From the NCBI GenBank assembly GCA_027035445.1, contig JALVUT010000119.1:1-13732 (forward strand): a stretch of DNA of 13,732 bases. Reading direction: 5' to 3'. Below, in pieces: positions 342-13,732 of this stretch. The position numbers and the translations under genes were made by a program. The stretch's first letter is position 1. Every line of letters starts with the position of its first letter. The notes below the pieces were generated by a model that had not been told where the DNA came from, made no database searches, and saw only the letters and a program-made list of their open reading frames with translations. This DNA comes from Thermococcus sp. (GTDB lineage: Archaea > Methanobacteriota_B > Thermococci > Thermococcales > Thermococcaceae).

Positions 342-2171
342 ATGAAAGAAGATTACCCTAAGTTATTCAAGCCGATAAACATCGGAAAAGTTCAGCTCAT
401 GAACAGGGCCATTTTTCCACCCATATCCACCAACTTCGCCCTTGGAAACGGCAGGCTGACCGAGAGGTTCGTTAAGCATTATGAGAGGCGCGCGAGGGGC
501 GGTGTCGGCCTGATAATCGTTGAGAACACGTCCATTGACTTCCCGGAAGGAAAGCACATGCCCTTCCAGCCGAGGATAGACTCAAAGGCTGTCCTCAAGG
601 ACTGGGAGTGGCTGACATTCGAGGTGCACGAGCACGAGGGGGTTAAGCTCTCCATCGAGCTTGCCCACGAGGGGTGGAAGAGGATAGGCACCGACTACCT
701 CTCGCCCGAGAAGATTGAGGAGCTTGTGGAGAAGTTCGCCTACTCCGCGAGGCTGGCCATGGAAGCGAGCTTTGACATGGTCGAAGTGCAGGCTGCTCAC
801 GGTCTTCTCATCAATCAGTTCCTCTCACCGCTGACCAACCACCGCGACGACGAGTGGGGTAAACCAACGAGGTTCGCCGTTGAGGTGCGGAAGCGCATAG
901 CAGTGGAGTGCGGCCGGGACTTCCCGGTTACCATAAGGCTCGCGGTTGATGATTTCCTTGAAGGGGGTATAAACCTGAGCATGGGACGCGAGATAGCTCT
1001 GGAACTTGCCAAAGCGGGCTACGACATGATCCAGGCGGATATAGGGTTAGGCCCAAAGGAGAAGCGCCTTGAGCCGATGCACTATCCCCAGGCCTGGCGC
1101 GCCTATCTGGCCGAGAAGATAAGGCCTCTACCGGTTCCAGTGGCGGCGGTGGGGATGATAAGGGAGCCGGCGGTCGCGGAGAGGGTTCTTGAGAGGCAGG
1201 CAGACCTCGTCGTCCTCGGAAGGACGCTCATAGCGGACCCGGACTGGGTAAAGAAGGTCGCCAAGGGTAAGGAGCATCTCATAAGGCGCTGCATCGGGTG
1301 CAGCGAGTGCATCAAGGCAGTACACGACGAGAATGGGCCGATAAGGTGCGGCGCCAACGCCAACGTCGGCAACGAGGAGGAGATCCAGCCGGCTCCGAGG
1401 AAGCGCGTTGTGGCAATAATCGGTGCCGGCCCCGGCGGACTTGAAGCTGCAAGGGTGGCGGCGCTCAGAGGGCATGAGGTGCATCTCTTCTACGAGGTCT
1501 TCGGCGGCCAGCTCGTCCTCGCGAAGGTTCCTCCGGGGAAGGAAAAGATAGGCTGGCTCATCGAGTACTACCACAACGCCCTCTCTGAGATGCCCAACGT
1601 CCACCTCCACAAGGGCAGGGCCACCAAGGAGGACGTCATGAAGTTCAACCCGGAGGCGGTGGTGATAGCGACCGGTGCGAACCCGATACTCCCCTGCTCC
1701 GGCGAGAGGGGCCTGATAATCCCCTTCGACAGAATCCTCAGGGGAGAGGTGAAGGTCGAGGGCAAAGAAGTCCTCATCGGCGGCGGGGGACTCGTAGGGG
1801 TGGAGACTGCCCTTTATTTGGCCCAATTCAACAACCGCGTGAAGATAATCAAGCGCAGTCCGGCAATTCTCCCCAACGTGGAGAGGATAACCCGTGGCTA
1901 CCTCCTGAGGAAGCTTGAGGAGAGGGAGATACCTATTCTGACCGGCAGGGTTTTCGTGAGCGCTGGAGATGGCTACGCAATCGTTGAGAACACCGAGACG
2001 GGAGAGAATGAGATGATAAAGTGCGACGTCATCGTCGGGGCCTTCGGCATGAGATCATATGTTCCCTTCGTCATAGACGGCGTTGAGTACCACATAATCG
2101 GGGACGCGAAGTCCGTGAGGAACATAGCGAGCGCCGTTAAGGAGGGCTACGAGGTAGGAAGACGGCTCTGA
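342..2171 (+). CDS. Fused FMN / 4Fe-4S / FAD-NAD oxidoreductase (2,4-dienoyl-CoA reductase / old yellow enzyme family)
   Basis: A 609-residue flavoprotein with the FadH / trimethylamine dehydrogenase layout. Residues 1 to about 310 are the FMN-binding TIM barrel (opening KLFKPINIGKVQLMNRAIFP; QFLSPLTNHRDDEWG near 158-172). C317, C320, C323 and C336 follow for one 4Fe-4S cluster. Next come an FAD site (GAGPGG, 361-366) and an NAD(P) site (GGGGLVG from 480). The Cys spacing (x2, x2, x12) is that of trimethylamine dehydrogenase, not E. coli FadH. Leu155 stands where the family normally has an active-site Tyr (HGY or HSY), so the usual acid is missing. The ATG at 342 is chosen because GGTGAG ends 4 nt before it and the barrel begins there; the in-frame TTG at 261 adds 27 residues unlike the family. 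The substrate is unknown. It appears to be a single-gene unit. Confidence 0.88.
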   Translation: MKEDYPKLFKPINIGKVQLMNRAIFPPISTNFALGNGRLTERFVKHYERRARGGVGLIIVENTSIDFPEGKHMPFQPRIDSKAVLKDWEWLTFEVHEHEGVKLSIELAHEGWKRIGTDYLSPEKIEELVEKFAYSARLAMEASFDMVEVQAAHGLLINQFLSPLTNHRDDEWGKPTRFAVEVRKRIAVECGRDFPVTIRLAVDDFLEGGINLSMGREIALELAKAGYDMIQADIGLGPKEKRLEPMHYPQAWRAYLAEKIRPLPVPVAAVGMIREPAVAERVLERQADLVVLGRTLIADPDWVKKVAKGKEHLIRRCIGCSECIKAVHDENGPIRCGANANVGNEEEIQPAPRKRVVAIIGAGPGGLEAARVAALRGHEVHLFYEVFGGQLVLAKVPPGKEKIGWLIEYYHNALSEMPNVHLHKGRATKEDVMKFNPEAVVIATGANPILPCSGERGLIIPFDRILRGEVKVEGKEVLIGGGGLVGVETALYLAQFNNRVKIIKRSPAILPNVERITRGYLLRKLEEREIPILTGRVFVSAGDGYAIVENTETGENEMIKCDVIVGAFGMRSYVPFVIDGVEYHIIGDAKSVRNIASAVKEGYEVGRRL

Positions 2172-2917: not shown

Positions 2918-3370
2918 ATGCCTTACCTGATCGTACATGAGGATAGATGTATAGGTTGCCATACATGTGAAATGGTCTGTTCTCTAAGCCACGAGGGAGT
3001 GATAAACCCGGATCTATCAAGGATTCATGTAATAGGGTATAAGGGGGAGAAATTCCCCATAATGTGCCTTCAGTGCGAAGATGCACCCTGTGAACTGGTA
3101 TGCCCAATGGAAGCCATTCATATGGACGGCGATGTGAGGGTTGTAGACGACGACAAGTGCATCCGCTGCAAGATGTGCACCCTTGTCTGTCCGATTGGAG
3201 GTGTTCTCTATGATTATATTGGCCACAGGATGATAAGATGTGACCTGTGCGGGGGAGACCCTCAGTGTGCGAAATACTGTCCGATGGATGCCATTGAAGT
3301 TGTTCCCGATGAAGAGGTTCCCGAATCAAGAAGGAGGGGCGTTAGGGTGCTATACGGGGAGGCGGATTGA
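2918..3370 (+). CDS. Polyferredoxin with four 4Fe-4S motifs; electron-transfer subunit of an AOR-type complex
   Basis: A 150-residue protein with 16 cysteines in four groups: C11/14/17/21, C50/53/58/62, C81/84/87/91 and C108/111/117/121. This is the four-cluster pattern of the small electron-transfer subunits of DMSO-reductase-like and AOR-like complexes (HycB/DmsB type; AorA in Aromatoleum; WOR5S in P. furiosus). No signal peptide or membrane segment is seen, so it should be cytoplasmic. The ATG at 2918 is chosen over the in-frame TTG at 2906 because GGTGG lies 5 nt before it and because the TTG would place the ribosome-binding site inside the gene. Its stop abuts the next ATG with no gap. 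Being the first gene before two AOR homologues, it most likely wires the tungsten subunits to the flavoprotein encoded last. The family and cluster count are clear; the partner assignment is from gene order. Confidence 0.9.
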   Translation: MPYLIVHEDRCIGCHTCEMVCSLSHEGVINPDLSRIHVIGYKGEKFPIMCLQCEDAPCELVCPMEAIHMDGDVRVVDDDKCIRCKMCTLVCPIGGVLYDYIGHRMIRCDLCGGDPQCAKYCPMDAIEVVPDEEVPESRRRGVRVLYGEAD

Positions 3371-5176
3371 ATGATAGGATACGCGGGGGAGATCCTCGTA
3401 ATAGATCTGGGCACCCACGTTGTTAAAAAGATTCCAACAGAAAGATATGCAAAAGATTTCCTTGGAGGGAGAGGGATAGCTACAAAGATAGCCTATGACA
3501 TGATTCCTCCCCATGTAAATGCTCTGGAGCCTGATAACATTCTCATAATGATGACGGGCCCCCTAACGGGAGTTGCACCATCGAGTTCCAGGATAGACGT
3601 GGTCTCCCTCTCTCCTGTAACAAATCTCCTGGGAGGCAGCAGTGCTGGTGGAGATTTTGGTGCAGTTTTAAAATTTGCCGGCTATGATGGAATTGTGATA
3701 AAAGGAAAGAGCAAAAAGCCTGTGGGGATACGAATAATAGACGATGAGATTACGTTTCACGATGCAGAAGCATGCTGGGAGTATAATGTTTATGATACTG
3801 TAGATTGCATAAAGAGTCTGGGAAGAGAGGACGTGCAGGTTGCCTGCATAGGAAAAGCAGGGGCGAATCTAGTCAAGATGGCCGGGATAAGCTTCTCAAA
3901 GCGCAATCTCGCATCCCGCGGTGGTCTCGGTGCAGTAATGGGGAGCAAGAATCTTAAAGCTATTGCAGTTGCAGGAACGAAAGGAATAAAGGTTAGCGAC
4001 CAAGAAAAGCTCCTGGAGTATAACTTTGAAATTGAGAGCACTCTTATCAAGAGCCCCAGCTTTAAAAAATATGAAAACTGGCACGCAAATATCTCACCTG
4101 CCCTTCTCAAGGCAAAAAGACCCTACTTCGGCGATTATGAGGAAGACTTCTGGGAAGATGCAGAAGAGGCAGCAAAGAATTCAAAACATTTCTTCGAAGA
4201 AATGGCTGTTCTAAAACCCAACAGCTGCTTTGCATGTCCCCTGAGATGCTGGGCATGGATTGAGTATAAAGGAGAAGAAGCACCGATGGTAGCATGTCAG
4301 GGTACTTTTCCAGCAATAATATTCATGCTCAAAATAAAAGACCCAGAACTCGCCTGGAAGGTTTATCTCAAGCTCCAGAGGGAGGGAATGGATATAATGA
4401 GCACTGCCGCCATTGTGGCATACGCATCAACTCTCGGGCTGGTTAAACTTGGAAGCGAAGAAGTTCTCACTCTTATAGACAAGATAACCAATCGCGAGGG
4501 TTCAGGGAATGTGCTTGCAGAGGGTATTAAAAAAGCGAGTGAGCACTTTGGAGTCCCGGCGGTTTATGTTAAAGGAGGGATGGAGTCCTGGAGCAGCGAT
4601 ATAAGGCCATTTCGGGGTATTGCACTTGCGGCCGCGGTTACCGAAAGTGGCAGCATAAGCAGGGCAATCCATGGATTCCCGGCATCTTCATACTACACAA
4701 AACCAGAAAAAGCAAAGAAAGTCGCCAAGAAGATAGTGGGAAGTGAAAAAGCAGCGGAACCTACCAACTATGAAGGAAAGGCGGCATTAGTTGTGTATTT
4801 TGAGAACGAACACATCATAGCGGATTCCCTTGGAGTATGTGATACACCACTGCTTTCTATACCCCTTGATCTCTGGAGTGCCTCATATACAGCCGCCACT
4901 GGCATATCCATGAGGGTTGAAGGACTTCACTTTTTAGCTGGGAAGATAAGAACCCTTGAGAGGATGTTTAACGTAAGAAGGGGAGTTGATAGAAACAGAG
5001 ATATAATTTCACCAAAGTTCTTTCAGAGTGTTATACGTTCCGGGCCCTGGAAAGGGGTTAAAATAGACCGGGATGCCTTTGAGAGGATGAAAAGCGAATA
5101 TTACTCCCTCAGAGGTTGGGGCGAAAATGGAATTCCCACGGATGAAACACTGAAAAAATACGGACTTGAATGGTGA
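3371..5176 (+). CDS. Divergent aldehyde:ferredoxin oxidoreductase-family large subunit, tandem copy 1
   Basis: A 601-residue AOR-family tungstopterin protein. Family marks: GGRG near 32-35, TGPLTG near 62, KFAGYDGIVIKG, RGGLGAVMGSKNLKAI near 183-198, 4Fe-4S ligands C286, C289, C293 and C490, the second pterin motif DSLGVC (485-490), and the C-terminal YYSLRGW. Three AOR features are absent. The GPEYE segment with the active-site Glu (E313 in P. furiosus AOR) is replaced by QGTFPA (310-315). The active-site His (H448 in AOR) falls at about Ser430. The first Asp of the DxxGxD pterin motif is Gln336 (QREGMD). A ribosome-binding site GGGGAGG (3356-3362) precedes the ATG by 8 nt. It is more A/T-rich than the flanking genes. 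Substrate unknown; it should act with the polyferredoxin before it and the paralogue after it. Confidence 0.87.
   Translation: MIGYAGEILVIDLGTHVVKKIPTERYAKDFLGGRGIATKIAYDMIPPHVNALEPDNILIMMTGPLTGVAPSSSRIDVVSLSPVTNLLGGSSAGGDFGAVLKFAGYDGIVIKGKSKKPVGIRIIDDEITFHDAEACWEYNVYDTVDCIKSLGREDVQVACIGKAGANLVKMAGISFSKRNLASRGGLGAVMGSKNLKAIAVAGTKGIKVSDQEKLLEYNFEIESTLIKSPSFKKYENWHANISPALLKAKRPYFGDYEEDFWEDAEEAAKNSKHFFEEMAVLKPNSCFACPLRCWAWIEYKGEEAPMVACQGTFPAIIFMLKIKDPELAWKVYLKLQREGMDIMSTAAIVAYASTLGLVKLGSEEVLTLIDKITNREGSGNVLAEGIKKASEHFGVPAVYVKGGMESWSSDIRPFRGIALAAAVTESGSISRAIHGFPASSYYTKPEKAKKVAKKIVGSEKAAEPTNYEGKAALVVYFENEHIIADSLGVCDTPLLSIPLDLWSASYTAATGISMRVEGLHFLAGKIRTLERMFNVRRGVDRNRDIISPKFFQSVIRSGPWKGVKIDRDAFERMKSEYYSLRGWGENGIPTDETLKKYGLEW
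4517..4612 (+). repeat. Segment shared with 6289-6384: 32 codons giving identical protein in both tandem AOR genes
   Basis: Codons 383-414 of copy 1 encode the same 32 residues as codons 370-401 of copy 2, from AEGIKK to SSDIRPF. By direct comparison 85 of 96 bases match, all 11 differences are third-position synonymous, and one 29-base run is exact. Flanking regions of the two proteins are clearly more diverged. Confidence 0.85.
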
Positions 5177-5181
5177 TAAGG

Positions 5182-6927
5182 ATGTTTGGATACACAAACA
5201 AAATTCTTTTTGTGGATTTAACAAAAAGACAGGTTAAAACCGAACCAACTGACAGATATGCTAAAAAATTCTTGGGAGGACGGGGAATAGCAACCAAAAT
5301 CCTCTACGAGCATCCTGACGCCCTAGTCTTTATGACGGGGCCGCTAACCTCCTTCGTGCCCTCCGGCTCAAGGATGGACGTTGTCGGTGTATCGCCTATC
5401 ACGGGCCTCCTGGGGGGGAGCAGCACGGGTGGAGATTTCCCATCTGCATTAAAGTTCGCCGGCTACGACGGAATAGTCATCACGGGAAACGCAGAAAACC
5501 CAATTTATATAAAAATTGACAACGATGAAGTTTCTTTTGAATCTGCGGAAGAGTTCTGGGGATTAAACGTCTTTGACACAATAGACTATCTCACCCACGG
5601 ACATCCAGATTTACGAGTGGCATGCATTGGACGAGCCGGAGAAAGAATGGTTAAGTTTGCGGGAATCTCGTTCTCTCACAGAAACCTCGCATCGCGTGGT
5701 GGTCTCGGGGCCGTTATGGGTGCAAAGAAGTTGAAGGCAATCCTTGTTCATGGCACGAAGGGAGCAAATCCCTATAATCCAATGGAGCTCATGAGCGTGT
5801 TCCAGGAGATACAGGAGAGCATAATGGAGAGCGGGGAGTTCCTCCGCTTCAAGGACTGGCACAGGAACTTCGTACCGACGATACTGAACCTGAGGATGCC
5901 CTACTTTGGGGACTACGAAAGGGAATGGGAGAAGGCCGAGGAGGCTGCTTTGAAAGCAAGAGAGTTCTTTGAAGAGCATACAGTTGGAAGAGCAAGCTGC
6001 TTTTCCTGTCCTTTGAGATGCTGGGGTCTTGTGCAATATGATGGAGAAACACTCCCCATAAACCTCTGTCAGGGGACTTTTCCGGCGGCAGTCTTCACCC
6101 TCAAGATTGATGATCCGGAGCTTGCATGGAAGGTCTACCAGAAGTGCCAGAGCGAAGGTCTCGACATGATGAGCACAGTTGCTGTAGTAGCCTATGCCTC
6201 CCGTCTGGGAAAAGTGGAACTCGGAAGTGAGGAGATTCTAGATTTCATTGAAAAAATTGTGAGGAGGGAAGGAGAGGGAGACATATTTGCAGAGGGAATT
6301 AAAAAAGCGAGTGAGCACTTTGGAGTTCCAGCAGTTTATGTGAAGGGTGGAATGGAGTCCTGGAGCAGCGACATAAGGCCCTTCATAGGTTCTGCTTTAA
6401 TCTCAGCGGTTGCTGATTCGGGGAGCGTGAATAGAGCATTATACGGCTTCCCAGAGTTTTACTACTACATAAAGAAAGAGCAGGCAGAGACCGTTGCAAC
6501 CAGATTCGTGGGGGACATAGAAGCAGCTTATCCCTGGAGTTATTCGTCAAGTAAAGTAAAACTCGCGGTACTCTGGGAGAACATGCACATCATAGCAGAC
6601 AGCTTAGGCGTCTGTGTTATCGCGCTCCTTACAACACCTCTTGAACTGTGGGCTCAAGCTCACAAAGCTGTCACCGGGGAAACCATAACAAAAGAGGAGT
6701 TCATGATGCTGGCAGAGAGAATCAGATCCCTGGAAAGGCTCTTTAACTTAAAATATGGCAAAGGACAGGATGAAATCTCGGAGAGGCTCTTTACAGGTGA
6801 ATACGGCATTAACAGGGAAGAGCTGAACAGGATGAGGCTTGTTTATTACTCCCTCAGAGGGTGGGATGAAAACGGTGTTCCGGATCCGAATATGTTAAAA
6901 ATGCTCGGACTGGGTGATCTGGGATGA
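5182..6927 (+). CDS. Divergent aldehyde:ferredoxin oxidoreductase-family large subunit, tandem copy 2
   Basis: A 581-residue paralogue of the preceding gene. It has cluster ligands C273, C276, C280 and C478, the second pterin motif DSLGVC (473-478), RGGLGAVMGAKKLKAI, and C-terminal YYSLRGW. It shares the replacements of copy 1: QGTFPA from Gln297 where AOR has GPEYE, Gln323 in place of the first pterin-motif Asp (QSEGLD), and no His where AOR has GGDH (here SGSVNRALYG). It is about 20 residues shorter, mainly through loss of a loop after GGRGIATKI and near the C-terminus. The ATG at 5182 is chosen over the ATG at 5170 because GGTGAT (5172-5177) ends 4 nt before it and because the protein then begins MFGY, as AOR proteins do. 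Five bases separate it from copy 1, and it overlaps the next gene by 4 nt (ATGA). It may form a mixed complex with copy 1 or differ from it in substrate. Confidence 0.87.
   Translation: MFGYTNKILFVDLTKRQVKTEPTDRYAKKFLGGRGIATKILYEHPDALVFMTGPLTSFVPSGSRMDVVGVSPITGLLGGSSTGGDFPSALKFAGYDGIVITGNAENPIYIKIDNDEVSFESAEEFWGLNVFDTIDYLTHGHPDLRVACIGRAGERMVKFAGISFSHRNLASRGGLGAVMGAKKLKAILVHGTKGANPYNPMELMSVFQEIQESIMESGEFLRFKDWHRNFVPTILNLRMPYFGDYEREWEKAEEAALKAREFFEEHTVGRASCFSCPLRCWGLVQYDGETLPINLCQGTFPAAVFTLKIDDPELAWKVYQKCQSEGLDMMSTVAVVAYASRLGKVELGSEEILDFIEKIVRREGEGDIFAEGIKKASEHFGVPAVYVKGGMESWSSDIRPFIGSALISAVADSGSVNRALYGFPEFYYYIKKEQAETVATRFVGDIEAAYPWSYSSSKVKLAVLWENMHIIADSLGVCVIALLTTPLELWAQAHKAVTGETITKEEFMMLAERIRSLERLFNLKYGKGQDEISERLFTGEYGINREELNRMRLVYYSLRGWDENGVPDPNMLKMLGLGDLG
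6289..6384 (+). repeat. Partner of the 4517-4612 segment in tandem AOR copy 2
   Basis: Second member of the 96-base pair described at 4517-4612; the exact 29-base run occupies 6298-6326 here and 4526-4554 there. The segment lies between the first pterin motif and the region that replaces the active-site His, and contains GGMESWSSDIRPF, where the canonical AOR at 11886-13706 has an ELPAYDPRG motif. Confidence 0.85.
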
Positions 6928-8114
6928 GACACGTTATTATTGGGGCAGGTGGGGCAGGAACTGCAGCTGCCGAAACGATAAGCGAAAACTCCGAGGATGA
7001 GATCGTGGTAATAAACCGCGAGAAGACACTACCATACTCTCCGGCAGCGCTCCCCTACTACATAGAGGGGACGGTGAGGAGGGAAAAGCTTTTCATATGG
7101 AACTGGCGCTTCGTGCGCTCCAGCGGCATAGACTACGTGATGGGGCGGGAGGTCGAGAACATCGATGTGGAGAAAAAGAGGGTCTCCCTCGACAACGGAG
7201 AGGAGATAGATTACGACAGGCTGCTTATATCCAGCGGAGCGAAGCCCAACATAATCCCCCAGTTCAGGAGAGAGAATGTCATAGGGGTTAGGACAATTGA
7301 AGACGCCGACAGGCTGAAGCGGATACGGGGCAGGGTGATAATAATAGGTGCCGGGCCTGTCGCTGTTGAAACTGCCATAGCCCTCAGGAGGCTTGGAGCT
7401 GATCCCATAATAATCTGTCGCTCAAGGATCCTCAGAAGGCTCTTTGATGAGGATATCTCCGACATAATCAGGGACGTCATGATACTCAACGGCGTGAAGG
7501 TTCTTTTCGAGAAGAGTGTAGAGCTGGTTGGAGAACCCGTGGAGGGAATAAAGGCACCGTGCGGTATCGTCTATGGAGATCTGATAGTGGCGGCGCTGGG
7601 TGTGAGACCCAACCTATCCTTTGTGGACGGCAGGATTGCCTTGGGAGAGCGTGGTGGAATCCTGACTGACGAGAGGATGGGAACAAATGTAAAGGATGTC
7701 TACGCCGCCGGGGATTGCGCCGAGACCCGGGATTTGATAACGGGCCGCTACGGCATCTTCGCCATCTGGCCTCTCGCGAGGGAGCAGGGCCGGGTCGCGG
7801 GATACAACATGCTTGGGGTTGAAAAGCACTACCGAGGCTCGATAAACATGAACATAATAACGATATTCGACAAGGTCTTTGCCTCGATAGGAACCTTCAC
7901 AGGCGCAAGGAAAGAGGTATGGCACGGCTCACACATAGCGAAGCTCTTCATCGAAAACGGCAGGCTGAACGGGGCTCAGCTCGTCGGCAAGTACGCACTC
8001 CAGTATGCGGGTGCCGTGGAGTATCTGGTTAGGAGCAGAAGGGCCGTCAGGATGGAGTCCATGAGCGACGCAAAGAATTTCATAAAAGAAGTATGGCAGA
8101 GCGTAACGGCATGA
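6924..8114 (+). CDS. FAD/NAD(P)-dependent oxidoreductase, putative pyridine-nucleotide subunit of the tandem-AOR complex
   Basis: A 396-residue flavoprotein of the pyridine nucleotide-disulfide oxidoreductase fold. It has an N-terminal FAD Rossmann motif (GAGGAG, 7-12), a central NAD(P) motif (GAGPVAVETA from 142), and the second FAD motif DVYAAGDCAE (258 onward, Asp264). The redox cysteine of CoA-disulfide reductase and NADH oxidase (CGLPY) is absent: the segment reads SPAALPYY with Ala41 in its place. This points to simple hydride/electron transfer rather than disulfide chemistry, as in AorC of the Aromatoleum complex or NirB/rubredoxin-reductase-like proteins. GGTGAT (6913-6918) ends 5 nt before the ATG, which overlaps the stop of tandem AOR copy 2. 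As the last gene of the operon it probably links the polyferredoxin and tungsten subunits to NAD(H) or NADP(H). The fold is certain; partner and direction are inferred. Confidence 0.86.
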   Translation: MRHVIIGAGGAGTAAAETISENSEDEIVVINREKTLPYSPAALPYYIEGTVRREKLFIWNWRFVRSSGIDYVMGREVENIDVEKKRVSLDNGEEIDYDRLLISSGAKPNIIPQFRRENVIGVRTIEDADRLKRIRGRVIIIGAGPVAVETAIALRRLGADPIIICRSRILRRLFDEDISDIIRDVMILNGVKVLFEKSVELVGEPVEGIKAPCGIVYGDLIVAALGVRPNLSFVDGRIALGERGGILTDERMGTNVKDVYAAGDCAETRDLITGRYGIFAIWPLAREQGRVAGYNMLGVEKHYRGSINMNIITIFDKVFASIGTFTGARKEVWHGSHIAKLFIENGRLNGAQLVGKYALQYAGAVEYLVRSRRAVRMESMSDAKNFIKEVWQSVTA

Positions 8115-8189: not shown

Positions 8190-9623
8190 TCAATCAAAAG
8201 AAACCGTTTTGAGAGAGATCCTAGAAGCCTCCCTGTCCTTTTTAGTACTGTAGTAGATGTTGAGAACCCCCCGTATAGCCCTTCTCAGGATAAAGCCACG
8301 ACGTTCAATCACATCTTTTATGAGAACCTTAGGACGAAGGTAGAATGAGAGGTAGGCCTTTCTCAAAAGCTTCGATATCTGCTCGGGGGTGAAGTACTTT
8401 AATTTCATAACGGGATCGATAGTCGTGTACTTCCTCCAGTTGCGGGTCAGAAGAAGGCTGTGCTCTACCGCATACTGCCAGAGCCTCGTTCCAGGGTAGG
8501 GGGTTGCCACGGTGAACTGGGCAAAATCAACGCCAACTCTCTTGGCGAACCCTATGGTTGTATCTATCTCCTCTCTGGTTTCCTCAGGAAAACCTATTAT
8601 GAAAGAACCCAGTGCCCGGAGGCCGGCTTTTTTTGCAGTTTTAACGGCATCAATGGACTGCTGAGGGGTTATCCCCTTCCCGATGAAATCCAGCGTTCTC
8701 TGGGAACCCGATTCTATCCCAAAGTACACGGTGTGGCAGCCACCGGCTCTCATCGCCCTCGCTATCTTCTCGCTGAAGGTGTTGACCCTTGAGGATGCAG
8801 TCCAGGTTACGTCAAGCCCCTCCTCCTTTATTCTCCTTGGAATATCAACGGCCCTCCTCCTGTTGAGGGTGAAGGTATCGTCGAGGAACTCTATTTCCCT
8901 CTTGCCGTACTCGTTGCGCAGGATTGAGAGTTCTTCGATGACCCTTTCAACGCTGTGACCGCGCCATCTCTTCCCAAACTGGAGCGAAGAGGAGCAGAAG
9001 GCGCAGTTGAAGGGACACCCCCTGCTCGTCATTACCGTACCGAAAGGTGTCCCATCGGCGACGTATTCCTCCATCGGAAGGAGGTCATAGGAGGGTATCG
9101 GGATCTCGTCCACGTTCTTTATAAGGGGCCGTGGGGGCTCGTTTCTTATCTTCCCGCTCTTCCTGTCCTTGTAAGACAGTCCCAGTATCCCTTTGAGCCC
9201 CTTATTCTTATCCAAGGCATCAATAAGTTCCCTGAAGGTGAGTTCCCCCTCACCACGAACCACTGCGTCTATGCAGGGGCACTCCCTCATAGTAAGCTCT
9301 GGGGCAAAGGTGACGTGAGGACCACCCATAACCACGAAGACGTTTTCATTCAGGTTCTTTGCGATCCTCGCTATGGCGTAGGCGTCGTACATCGCCGAAG
9401 TGGTGGCGGTTATCCCGACTATATCTGGATCAAAGAGCTTGATCCTTCTCATCACATCGGGGAACGTCAGATCCTCGGCTATACCATCGATGATTTTGAC
9501 ATCGTGATCATCTCTAACCATTGAGGCTAGGTAAGCGAGACCCAGGGGCGGACCCGTTGTGCCCACGACCCTCTTTATCGCACTCTCGGTTGGAGGGAGT
9601 ATCAGAAGAACCCTCAACTCCAA
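8190..9623 (-). CDS. B12-binding-domain radical SAM enzyme, substrate unknown
   Basis: A 477-residue class B radical SAM protein. Residues 1 to about 140 resemble the cobalamin-binding Rossmann domain (LLILPP, GPPLGLAYLASM, MGGPHVTFAPEL, VVRGEGELTF). The radical SAM core has the 4Fe-4S motif C203-x3-C207-x2-C210, then EFLDDTF and YFGIESGSQ (the SAM-contact region). A basic C-terminal tail (about 415-477) is typical of BchE-like proteins. In archaea this class includes methylases and enzymes that modify tetraether lipids (ring, bridge and calditol synthases), but nothing here assigns one. The start is the TTG at 9623-9621, with only a weak GGGG upstream and TATA-like AGATATATC about 8-16 nt before it, so the start is uncertain by a few codons. 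It follows the permease gene by 58 bp on the same strand and may be co-transcribed with it. Confidence 0.85.
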   Translation of the reverse strand: MELRVLLILPPTESAIKRVVGTTGPPLGLAYLASMVRDDHDVKIIDGIAEDLTFPDVMRRIKLFDPDIVGITATTSAMYDAYAIARIAKNLNENVFVVMGGPHVTFAPELTMRECPCIDAVVRGEGELTFRELIDALDKNKGLKGILGLSYKDRKSGKIRNEPPRPLIKNVDEIPIPSYDLLPMEEYVADGTPFGTVMTSRGCPFNCAFCSSSLQFGKRWRGHSVERVIEELSILRNEYGKREIEFLDDTFTLNRRRAVDIPRRIKEEGLDVTWTASSRVNTFSEKIARAMRAGGCHTVYFGIESGSQRTLDFIGKGITPQQSIDAVKTAKKAGLRALGSFIIGFPEETREEIDTTIGFAKRVGVDFAQFTVATPYPGTRLWQYAVEHSLLLTRNWRKYTTIDPVMKLKYFTPEQISKLLRKAYLSFYLRPKVLIKDVIERRGFILRRAIRGVLNIYYSTKKDREASRISLKTVSFD

Positions 9624-9681: not shown

Positions 9682-10710
9682 TCATGCGGAAACCGTTGCC
9701 CCTTCCTCCTGCAGCACCGCGCATTTCCAGAGCCCCGCTATCTTTCTCCAGCCCTTCACATAACCAACCAGGAAAGGTATCTGAACTACAGGGGTTATAG
9801 CCGGCGCTATCGCCATAAGACCGGTCCCCGCTGCTAGGGCTATTGCCATTGCTGTTCCCTCATTCTTTCCGACGGAAGTGAAGGTTATCGCCATATGATC
9901 TTTGTAGGGAATCCCTGCGGCCCTGTCAACAAGGGTCATAAAGAGCAGGGCCGTGATATAGTAGAGAACTAGTGGTATCAATGCTACCCCGACGATACCG
10001 GGCTTACCGGCTATGAGCTTCGCCTTCTCCATGAAGATGAGGAAGACGATGGTGTACATGCCAAGGAGCGAGATTGAGGGAAAGGCTGGCTTTATCCTGA
10101 GGAAACCCTCCGGGCCAAGTTTGCCCATAAGGTAGGTCCGGGTGAGCATGCCAAGTATCATGGGCGTTACGACGACTACTAGGATGGTTCTGACGAGGAG
10201 CCACGCCGAAATCGCCACGTGATAACTGGAAGCGAAGATTTTAAGCCAGCCGGGGACGGTGACAATCGCCAAGGTGAAGCTCAGGGCGACCACTATAGTT
10301 GCCAGCTCGATGTTACCCTTTGTGAAGCCGGTGTAGGCTATGCTCATAGAAGAGCAGGGGACGACAACGGCCAGAAGCAGTCCAAGGGCGAGCATATGGT
10401 TCATCGGATGAAAGAGCCCGGTGAGCCAGATTGCCCCGTACATGATGAGGGGGGAGATTACAAGTCCCATGGTAAGGGCTATCGTCAGTTGCTTCCCAAG
10501 CTTCGCACCCTTCTTGAGCTCGCCGAGGCGGAGATTGACCATCATCGGGTAAATCATGCTAATAACGACGAGCATGTTGAGGAGCTTGAGCGTGTTATGG
10601 TAAGGTTTGATGTTGATGTGGTTACCCGCATAAAAGCCGAATATCATTGAGAGGGTGACGTAAACCGGGAGGTACTTGTCAAGGTGGTTCCTGAGCCTGA
10701 GCCAGTTCAT
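9682..10710 (-). CDS. Bile acid:sodium symporter / ACR3-like membrane transporter
   Basis: A 342-residue integral membrane protein with about ten hydrophobic segments (for example 14-30, 42-60, 74-96, 106-118, 135-157, 168-189, 211-227, 237-262, 286-303) and no signal peptide. PCSSM with Cys119 in a helix break, followed by GFTKGN, resembles the conserved Cys motif of ACR3 arsenite exporters. TSVGKNEGTAMAIALA (278-293) matches the second helix break of the bile acid:sodium symporter superfamily. It may therefore export a metalloid oxyanion or move an organic anion; the Cys favours ACR3-like function but does not prove it. GGTGAT lies 5 nt before the ATG. The ATG overlaps the stop of the UspA gene upstream by 4 nt, so the two are translationally coupled. 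The C-terminal end after 320 is hydrophilic and contains Cys330. Confidence 0.82.
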   Translation of the reverse strand: MNWLRLRNHLDKYLPVYVTLSMIFGFYAGNHINIKPYHNTLKLLNMLVVISMIYPMMVNLRLGELKKGAKLGKQLTIALTMGLVISPLIMYGAIWLTGLFHPMNHMLALGLLLAVVVPCSSMSIAYTGFTKGNIELATIVVALSFTLAIVTVPGWLKIFASSYHVAISAWLLVRTILVVVVTPMILGMLTRTYLMGKLGPEGFLRIKPAFPSISLLGMYTIVFLIFMEKAKLIAGKPGIVGVALIPLVLYYITALLFMTLVDRAAGIPYKDHMAITFTSVGKNEGTAMAIALAAGTGLMAIAPAITPVVQIPFLVGYVKGWRKIAGLWKCAVLQEEGATVSA

Positions 10711-11885: not shown

Positions 11886-13706
11886 TCACAGGAACTCCTC
11901 AAGGCCCAGCTCTTTGATTTTGTTCTCCGTTATTCTTCCATCGTCAGTCCAGCCTCTGAGGGAGTAGTAGCGCGGCAGCATCTCCTTCAACCTGACGACG
12001 TGTCCCTTATTGGGGCCGTCCGGCATCGGCTCTTCCGTGAGCCTCTTGGGCAGGGTGTCCTCCCTGAGCGGGTCGAGACCCGCCTTAAGGTTGAAGAGCC
12101 TCTCCGCGTTCCATATCCTTTCCCCTATCTTAAGATACTCCTCGGTGGTCAGATCCCAGCCGGTTGCAGCGTTGAGCATGTCACGGTAGTCGTCCCCTCC
12201 AAGGCCAAAGGTTGTGAAAACACAGAGGCCGGCGGCGTCTATTATCGCGGTGAGGTTCTGGAAGAGTATGAGCATCTTGACCTTCTCATCGCTTATGTCA
12301 TGCGGATCCATCTTGTATGGATAACCGAGTATCTCAGGGCTGATCATGTAAGCCTTGATGTGATCCCCGCCACGGTTGTCGGTGGCGTAGCCGAGACCGT
12401 GCCCCTCCGCTCCCCTCGGGTCATAGGCTGGGAGCTCCTGCTTCTTGACGCCCATGAAGTACTCGGTTCCACCGTACGCCTCAGCAAGACGGTAGCCACC
12501 CTCCGCCAGTTTGTCTCCGAAGTCCTTCCTGTAGGCTATCTTCTCGATGTAATAGTGGAGAACCTCGGTGTTGCCCCATCTGAACGGAGGGGCGTCCTCG
12601 CCGAGGTCTTCCTGCTTGAGAAGCCCCTTCTCGTAGAGCTCCATAGCGGTGGCAAGGGTTCCTCCCGTGGAAATGGTGTCCATTCCAAGGTCGTCTATGA
12701 GGTGGTTGGCCTCGATGATGCTCGCGAGGTCGTTTATGCCGAGGTGGGCCCCAAGTGCCCAGGTACTTTCATACTCCGGCCCCTCGGTAATCCCCACGGT
12801 TCCAACCTTGTTGACCCTTCCACAGCCGATCGGACAGGCGTAGCACGGCTTGTTCCTGACCAAGTATTTCGCGGTCATGGCCTCGCCGCTCTGCTCTTCA
12901 GCGTACTCGAAGACGCCGGTCTTGAAGTTTCTGGTCGGGTAGAGGCCGTTTGAGTTTATAATGTTAACCAGAACCGCGGTACCGTAGTTCGGCAGTCCGC
13001 CGCCCGCTACCGGATCCTTCTTTAACTTCTCAATCTTCTCCTTAACAACGCTCGTAAACTTGCTCCTGTCCGCAACTTCAACACGCTTGTGTCCCCTGAC
13101 AACTATGGCTTTGAGCTTCTTGCTCCCCATAACCGCACCTACGCCACCCCTTCCGGCGGCACGGTGACCATTGTTCATAACTGCTGCAATCTTTACGAGG
13201 TTTTCACCAGCCGGGCCGATAGATGCAATTTGGATGTGTTTGTCCCCTATTTCCTCCATTAGGGCCTCTTCTGTCTCACCAACGCGCTTGCCCCAGAGGT
13301 GGGATGCGTCCTTGAGCTCAACATGGTCATCGTTGATGTACAGGTAAACCGGATGGTCAGCTTTTCCTTCCACTATAACAGCGTCCCAGCCGGCGAACTT
13401 GAGCTCGGCTCCAAAGAAGCCGCCCGAGTTGGCCATCGCTATATAGCCTGTCAGAGGGCTCTTGGTTATAACCATGTACCTCCCACCGGTTGGTGCCGTG
13501 GTTCCTGTCAGTGGACCGGTAGTGTAGAGTATTTTATTGTCCGGGCTCAGCGGGTCAACTTTCGGGTCGATCTCCTTGAGGAGGTAGTGGATCCCGAAAC
13601 CCCTAGTTCCAAGCCACTTCTGGGCGAACTTTTCGTCAAAGGTTTCTTCGCTAATTTTCCCAGTGGAGAGGTTTACCCTCAGAATTTTTCCCCAGTATCC
13701 GAACAT
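11886..13706 (-). CDS. aor: Tungsten-containing aldehyde:ferredoxin oxidoreductase
   Basis: A 606-residue canonical AOR; the P. furiosus enzyme is 605 residues. It oxidises aldehydes to carboxylic acids with ferredoxin as acceptor, using a tungsten bis-pterin and one 4Fe-4S cluster in the cytoplasm. Key residues fall at the known positions: C288, C291, C295 and C495 for the cluster; DDLGMD (338-343) and DAAGLC (490-495) as the two pterin motifs; E313 in GPEYE; and H449 in GGDH (H448 in P. furiosus). ELPAYDPRG and the C-terminal YYSLRGW are also present. The ATG at 13706 is chosen because the protein then begins MFGYWGKILRVNLSTGK like its family and the residue numbers agree; GGAGG (13719-13715) precedes it by 8 nt. 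The in-frame ATG at 13721 would add five residues and cannot be excluded. It is convergent with the NifX-like gene, and its promoter lies outside the window. Confidence 0.95.
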   Translation of the reverse strand: MFGYWGKILRVNLSTGKISEETFDEKFAQKWLGTRGFGIHYLLKEIDPKVDPLSPDNKILYTTGPLTGTTAPTGGRYMVITKSPLTGYIAMANSGGFFGAELKFAGWDAVIVEGKADHPVYLYINDDHVELKDASHLWGKRVGETEEALMEEIGDKHIQIASIGPAGENLVKIAAVMNNGHRAAGRGGVGAVMGSKKLKAIVVRGHKRVEVADRSKFTSVVKEKIEKLKKDPVAGGGLPNYGTAVLVNIINSNGLYPTRNFKTGVFEYAEEQSGEAMTAKYLVRNKPCYACPIGCGRVNKVGTVGITEGPEYESTWALGAHLGINDLASIIEANHLIDDLGMDTISTGGTLATAMELYEKGLLKQEDLGEDAPPFRWGNTEVLHYYIEKIAYRKDFGDKLAEGGYRLAEAYGGTEYFMGVKKQELPAYDPRGAEGHGLGYATDNRGGDHIKAYMISPEILGYPYKMDPHDISDEKVKMLILFQNLTAIIDAAGLCVFTTFGLGGDDYRDMLNAATGWDLTTEEYLKIGERIWNAERLFNLKAGLDPLREDTLPKRLTEEPMPDGPNKGHVVRLKEMLPRYYSLRGWTDDGRITENKIKELGLEEFL

Positions 13707-13732
13707 GTTTCGTGCCTCCATATGTTCCTTGC

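Follow-up and report, generated by a model that had tools for sequence, protein, structure and literature searches.

The genes of AorABC, the class III tungsten-containing oxidoreductase (WOR) of Aromatoleum aromaticum, run in the order A-B-C. They encode a ferredoxin, a tungsten subunit and an FAD subunit (PDB 8c0z), and the tungsten subunit, AorB, is single, belongs to clade 87 and oxidises aldehydes. WOR5 (ASOR) of Pyrococcus furiosus, a class II enzyme (PDB 6x1o), likewise joins a tungsten subunit to a four-cluster ferredoxin in a Thermococcales organism; its metal has no protein ligand (PMC12096430). In BamB of the class II benzoyl-CoA reductase (PDB 4z3w) and in YdhV, a class V WOR of E. 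coli, the metal is bound by Cys322 and Cys336, respectively (PMC12096430). Here we describe an operon at positions 2918-8114 of a 13,732-nucleotide stretch of Thermococcus sp. (GCA_027035445.1, contig JALVUT010000119.1, forward strand; hereafter the window). Judged by its parts, the operon is a class III WOR layout, with large (WorL), ferredoxin (WorS) and FAD (WorN) subunits, in which the large subunit is doubled, and the sequences of both copies place them in the BamB/YdhV type, their metal being predicted to have a Cys ligand. The operon and its ligand positions are as follows.

2918-3370, plus strand: ferredoxin resembling AorA and WorS, 150 aa, 16 Cys in four groups of four, four predicted [4Fe-4S] clusters
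3371-5176, plus strand: AOR1 (copy 1), catalytic subunit, 601 aa, AFOR_N and AFOR_C (Pfam)
4226-4249, plus strand: copy 1 CxxCxxxC (C286, C289, C293), with C490 (4838-4840) the predicted [4Fe-4S] ligands
4295-4297, plus strand: copy 1 Cys309 (CQGT), aligned with the metal ligands BamB Cys322 and YdhV Cys336
5182-6927, plus strand: AOR2 (copy 2), catalytic subunit, 581 aa, AFOR_N and AFOR_C (Pfam)
5998-6021, plus strand: copy 2 CxxCxxxC (C273, C276, C280), with C478 (6613-6615)
6067-6069, plus strand: copy 2 Cys296 (CQGT), in the column of copy 1 Cys309 and invariant in a 27-row alignment
6924-8114, plus strand: FAD-NAD(P) oxidoreductase resembling WorN and AorC, 396 aa, Pyr_redox_2 (Pfam)

The gene order, a 16-Cys ferredoxin followed by two AOR-family copies and then an FAD protein, is as an earlier note on this DNA had claimed. 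The ferredoxin gene abuts copy 1 (TGA directly followed by ATG, 0 nt), 5 nt (5177-5181) separate the two copies, and copy 2 overlaps the FAD gene by 4 nt (ATGA). We place the start of copy 2 at the ATG that is also used in relatives; an alternative in-frame ATG at 5170 overlaps copy 1. Pfam and NCBIfam scans, which took in ten window proteins, matched the ferredoxin to several Fer4 models, and the AFOR_N and AFOR_C domains together with the [4Fe-4S] Cys motif place both large subunits, which are 55% identical to each other, in the AOR/WOR superfamily. The closest relative found is a Thermococcus metagenome-assembled genome with 96-99% identity across the four proteins (329 of 396 residues for the FAD protein). 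The genes for a four-cluster WorS and an FAD/NAD(P)-binding WorN stand beside WorL, the gene content of a class III WOR. The operon differs from AorABC in that its tungsten subunit is doubled and of the Cys type, and from WOR5, which has a single tungsten subunit and no FAD subunit and a low sequence score (3e-39, versus 8e-74 for 9mqx_D).

Both catalytic subunits lack the residues of the aldehyde-oxidising site. Thr243, Glu313, Tyr427 and His448 of P. furiosus AOR are absent from both copies, and all 63 rows of the clade that holds the copies carry Cys in the column of BamB Cys322. Among the further homologues, taken from the best 120 of each search, so that the counts describe these rows and not the whole family, 64 of 124 have this Cys, and the 60 without it keep His448 (60/60), Glu313 (57/60) and Thr243 (56/60). 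Independently of this alignment, HHalign places C309 opposite BamB C322 and also opposite YdhV C336; the YdhV match comes from HHalign, as MAFFT did not align YdhV there. A branch with support of 100/99 sets the Cys rows apart, whether or not the long rows of BamB, YdhV and FOR are included (partial rows and two near-duplicates, copy 1 of L004 and L006, were left out of the trees). BamB falls on this same branch and, like the copies, lacks the second-shell Glu and His of AOR; the aldehyde-oxidoreductase second shell is likewise missing in YdhV. By MAFFT, Glu251, His255, Glu257 and His260 of BamB are not conserved in the copies; HHalign places His238 opposite His260, and we withdrew a first reading of His260 as conserved because the two alignments disagree. 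The earlier note had taken the catalytic subunits to be of the AorB/WOR5 type, a label that we rejected given the missing second-shell residues of P. furiosus AOR and the BamB/YdhV Cys. The predicted metal sites resemble those of the benzoyl-CoA-reductase branch, so the reaction is probably not ordinary aldehyde oxidation.

These residues bear directly on whether the operon encodes two broad-specificity aldehyde oxidoreductase isoenzymes with a ferredoxin and an NAD(P) outlet in common, in the manner of AorABC. Such isoenzymes would agree with the AOR family fold and domains and with the AorA- and AorC-like partners, and aldehyde oxidation is the activity of most characterised WORs (PMC13328260). 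The absence from both copies of the four P. furiosus AOR residues and the Cys in the metal-ligand column nevertheless make this improbable, as does the report that CsWOR41 of clade 41, the clade of the Cys-type YdhV, was inactive on 46 aldehydes, although as a large subunit alone and partly purified (PMC13328260). A canonical AOR is, moreover, already present in the window.

That third AOR lies at 11886-13721 on the minus strand, is 77% identical to P. furiosus AOR and keeps Thr243, Glu313, Tyr427 and His448 in the aligned regions inspected.

The top solved-structure match of the ferredoxin is 9mqx_E, the WorS small subunit of the bifurcating AmWOR1 (8e-33), followed by AorA, 8c0z_C (3e-32). 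The window FAD protein itself matches CoA-disulfide reductases best, with AorC ranking sixth; its Hadarchaeum orthologue, 47% identical to it, has AorC (8c0z_E, 3e-44) as its best solved match. The AorA-like polyferredoxin and AorC-like flavoprotein of the earlier note are thereby supported, the latter through the orthologue. Where AorC has the dinucleotide motif VVEMGD, the window protein has IICRSR, and loss of the acidic residue suggests that it prefers NADP(H). The ferredoxin opens with MPYLIVHEDRC, in which Cys11 is already the first cluster Cys; no Tat-like extension or transmembrane segment was seen at the start of the sequence, a dedicated signal predictor not having been used. Unlike YdhV and other class V enzymes, the operon has a ferredoxin free of a Tat-like N-terminal extension and an FAD subunit in place of an adjoining membrane subunit. 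It also differs from the benzoyl-CoA reductase: BamC has three clusters (PMC13328260) and the operon ferredoxin four, the window open reading frames and scanned window proteins include no Bam-like bifurcation subunits (BamD-I), and no aromatic pathway genes were seen in the window.

A single-copy relative of the operon, consisting of ferredoxin, AOR and FAD genes, is present in Hadarchaeum yellowstonense (L010/L146; L146 726-7297). Its parts are homologous, at 47-49% identity, and its tungsten subunit is of the Cys type, but it has one catalytic subunit, which the tree places outside the duplication of copy 1 and copy 2. A plasmid search with this subunit returned 34 records, all below 60% identity (best 33%). 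In the trees, the 8 rows of copy 1 and the 13 of copy 2 form separate sister clades with the single-copy Hadarchaeum group outside, which points to one duplication as the origin of both. For pairs with dS below 0.6, dN/dS is 0.056 and 0.071 in copy 1 and 0.083 and 0.107 in copy 2; in most pairs that include the window dS is saturated and yields no ratio, and a value of 0.067 for the window and G039 (dS 2.5) was not counted. By these ratios, both copies are under purifying selection. Conservation and selection bear out the doubled catalytic subunit claimed in the earlier note, which had not known such a subunit as described. In agreement, no class with two large subunits appears in the available part of the 2026 WOR classification (PMC13328260), and among the open-licence PMC papers searched none was found to describe a doubled large subunit or a Cys-type class III enzyme; the Cys-type clade may already bear a number in an existing classification.

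The two copies have diverged around the predicted pocket. Thirty columns are fixed differently between 10 copy-1 rows, which here include the near-duplicates L004 and L006, and 13 copy-2 rows. At the column of P. furiosus His448, copy 1 has Ser430 and copy 2 Asn417 (outgroup Asn); at that of Tyr452, copy 1 has His434 and copy 2 Tyr421 (outgroup Tyr); and the position preceding the metal Cys is Ala308 in copy 1 and Leu295 in copy 2 (outgroup Ala). The differing columns include positions in two loops that are absent from copy 2 and present in copy 1, in the single-copy relatives and in P. furiosus AOR.

With copy 2 as query, whole-genome searches covered the Thermococcaceae, the family of G001 (94 genomes), a sample of 300 genomes from the class to which G003 belongs, and 229 from that of G005; with the Hadarchaeum subunit they covered 28 genomes from the phylum that includes G006 and 100 from that of G008. 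Many of these are metagenome-assembled genomes, in which a missing copy 1 can mean that it was unassembled, and one locus (L013), where a contig end cuts the ferredoxin and copy 1, was excluded from the counts. A relative at E <= 1e-90 was found in 8 of the 94 Thermococcaceae, with adjacent copies 1 and 2 in six (G001, G002, G009, G015, G037, G057) and copy 2 alone in two (G058, G039). Both copies are present in 3/300 genomes of the class of G003, and copy 2 alone in 4/229 of the class of G005. In all nine genomes with copy 1, which belong to two archaeal groups, the ferredoxin gene is directly upstream and copy 2 directly downstream, and the FAD gene follows copy 2 in 7/7 where the assembly continues (spread over two contigs in G009, a genome nearly conspecific with the window); the contigs of G057 and G004 stop within copy 2. 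Because it recurs in nine genomes, the arrangement of ferredoxin, copy 1 and copy 2 is no chance. The earlier note would have been refuted by AOR-like genes lying apart from the ferredoxin and flavoprotein genes in most relatives. For copy 1 this is not the case (together in 9/9), but copy 2 occurs without copy 1 in 6/15 genomes, five of them with no FAD gene seen beside it. In four of these five, G039 and the Desulfurococcales G005, G007 and G533, copy 2 stands with a different type of ferredoxin and no adjoining FAD gene; in the fifth, G558, a contig end lies just upstream of copy 2 and no FAD gene is found on the other side. Proteins from P. horikoshii, T. peptonophilus and T. profundus are among the matches listed.

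That copy 1 is found only alongside copy 2 (9/9), while copy 2 stands alone in six genomes, is one of two observations that would fit a single catalytic copy accompanied by a non-catalytic structural or regulatory paralogue, the other being the loss of two loops in copy 2. We consider this very unlikely, as both copies keep the CxxCxxxC...C ligands and the metal Cys, both have low dN/dS, and AlphaFold2 gives confident full-length models for each (mean pLDDT 89.1 for copy 1 and 90.4 for copy 2).

The genomes with copy 2 alone also speak to the sharing of partners. In L002 (6938-7468) and L004 (394 onward), an orphan second polyferredoxin, of the type paired with copy 2 in G039 and the Desulfurococcales, is found just upstream of the operon ferredoxin. 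If each copy formed a homomeric enzyme with partners of its own, copy 1 with this ferredoxin and FAD protein and copy 2 with the other ferredoxin, and the two were merely cotranscribed, both the pairing in G039 and the Desulfurococcales and the orphan gene would be accounted for. The second ferredoxin type was not found within the 13.7 kb of the window, however, and G058 retains the operon-type ferredoxin, copy 2 and the FAD gene in that order with copy 1 missing, and such a division of partners therefore appears unlikely. Because of this arrangement in G058, the operon ferredoxin probably serves copy 2 as well.

Our favoured reading, which we hold with moderate confidence, is an NAD(P)-linked tungsten (or molybdenum) oxidoreductase of the benzoyl-CoA reductase/YdhV type in which two alternative catalytic protomers use one ferredoxin wire. 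In the scheme that we infer for the metal and its ligation, the assembly, the direction and the choice of NAD(P), a small substrate would be brought in by a transporter and would meet a Cys-ligated bis-metallopterin in copy 1 or copy 2. Most likely, proton-coupled electron transfer by the second shell would then act on the substrate, probably reducing it or oxidising it towards NAD(P)+, and electrons would pass in either direction between the subunit [4Fe-4S] cluster, the four-cluster ferredoxin, FAD and NAD(P). The two copies would most likely be alternative protomers docked on one shared ferredoxin, feeding or drawing on one shared FAD subunit. In AorABC, a single AorC can carry a row of several AorAB protomers (PMC10413684), which offers a route for two kinds of large subunit to share one outlet. 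It is unlikely that a single ferredoxin wire with an FAD cap holds both copies at once and that these catalyse two different metallopterin reactions, passing electrons from substrate to substrate with NAD(P)H as a buffer, which would make a two-headed Cys-ligated tungsten enzyme. The earlier note had proposed one hetero-oligomer of this sort, with the two reactions possibly coupled. The readings weighed here overlap, and our confidences in them are not shares of one whole. In these hyperthermophilic archaea the operon would join a Cys-type site to a class III layout, doubled with diverged pockets and with a transporter gene alongside, and its relatives in named organisms (the P. horikoshii and T. 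peptonophilus proteins) make the reaction of an uncharacterised tungsten-enzyme branch testable.

The neighbouring genes of the window are as follows.

354-2171, plus strand: FadH/BaiCD-like OYE flavoenzyme
2231-2747 (gap 2171-2918), plus strand: remnant of a decayed MFS transporter gene, from weak collinear tblastn (E 0.002-0.2) and blastn pieces
8190-9623, minus strand: B12-binding radical SAM protein
9682-10710, minus strand: SBF/ACR3-like transporter, ACR3 score 104.7 (cut-off 282.8), ACR3 Cys kept (PCSSM against PCTAM)

The SBF gene occurs in 24/94 Thermococcaceae, two of them with weak matches of about 40% identity, and is present in 8/8 operon genomes versus 16/86 others, relatedness being ignored. 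This distribution and the retained ACR3 Cys are what would be expected if the operon encoded a metalloid (arsenic-like) redox enzyme working with the ACR3-like SBF transporter, which overlaps our favoured reading by naming a substrate; moreover, the single-copy Hadarchaeum operon has an ArsR-type regulator on either side, and a true ACR3 comes after it (364.4 bits against a cut-off of 282.8). The link to ACR3 and ArsR comes from this one Hadarchaeum locus, however, and in another Hadarchaeon (L153) it is a Glu-type AOR (PEYE motif) that has ACR3 and ArsR as neighbours, so the adjacency is not specific. The window SBF protein also falls below the ACR3 cut-off, and its gene accompanies the OYE and radical SAM genes in L160 and L161, which lack the operon. 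An arsenic-like substrate is, on this evidence, highly improbable.

The OYE, radical SAM, SBF and Usp genes form an island that L160 and L161 carry with no operon in it. There, about 180 nt separate the radical SAM and OYE genes, at the position that the operon occupies in the window, L002 and L003; the operon therefore looks like a cassette inserted between two convergent genes. We rejected the OYE as an operon partner and regard it as a neighbour only, since it is found in 4/8 operon genomes versus 12/86 others, relatedness being ignored here too, and the island exists without the operon. In relatives, a small gene and an MFS transporter gene lie upstream of the ferredoxin gene. The MFS gene occurs in 8/94 Thermococcaceae, in 7/8 operon genomes versus 1/86 others (G076), again ignoring relatedness; among the eight operon genomes it is full-length in six, in two pieces in G037 and not found in G009. 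The small protein is 90-116 aa long (L002 5450-5728 and relatives), and the one example scanned matched nothing in Pfam or NCBIfam; its gene adjoins the MFS gene in the seven loci in which both were found.

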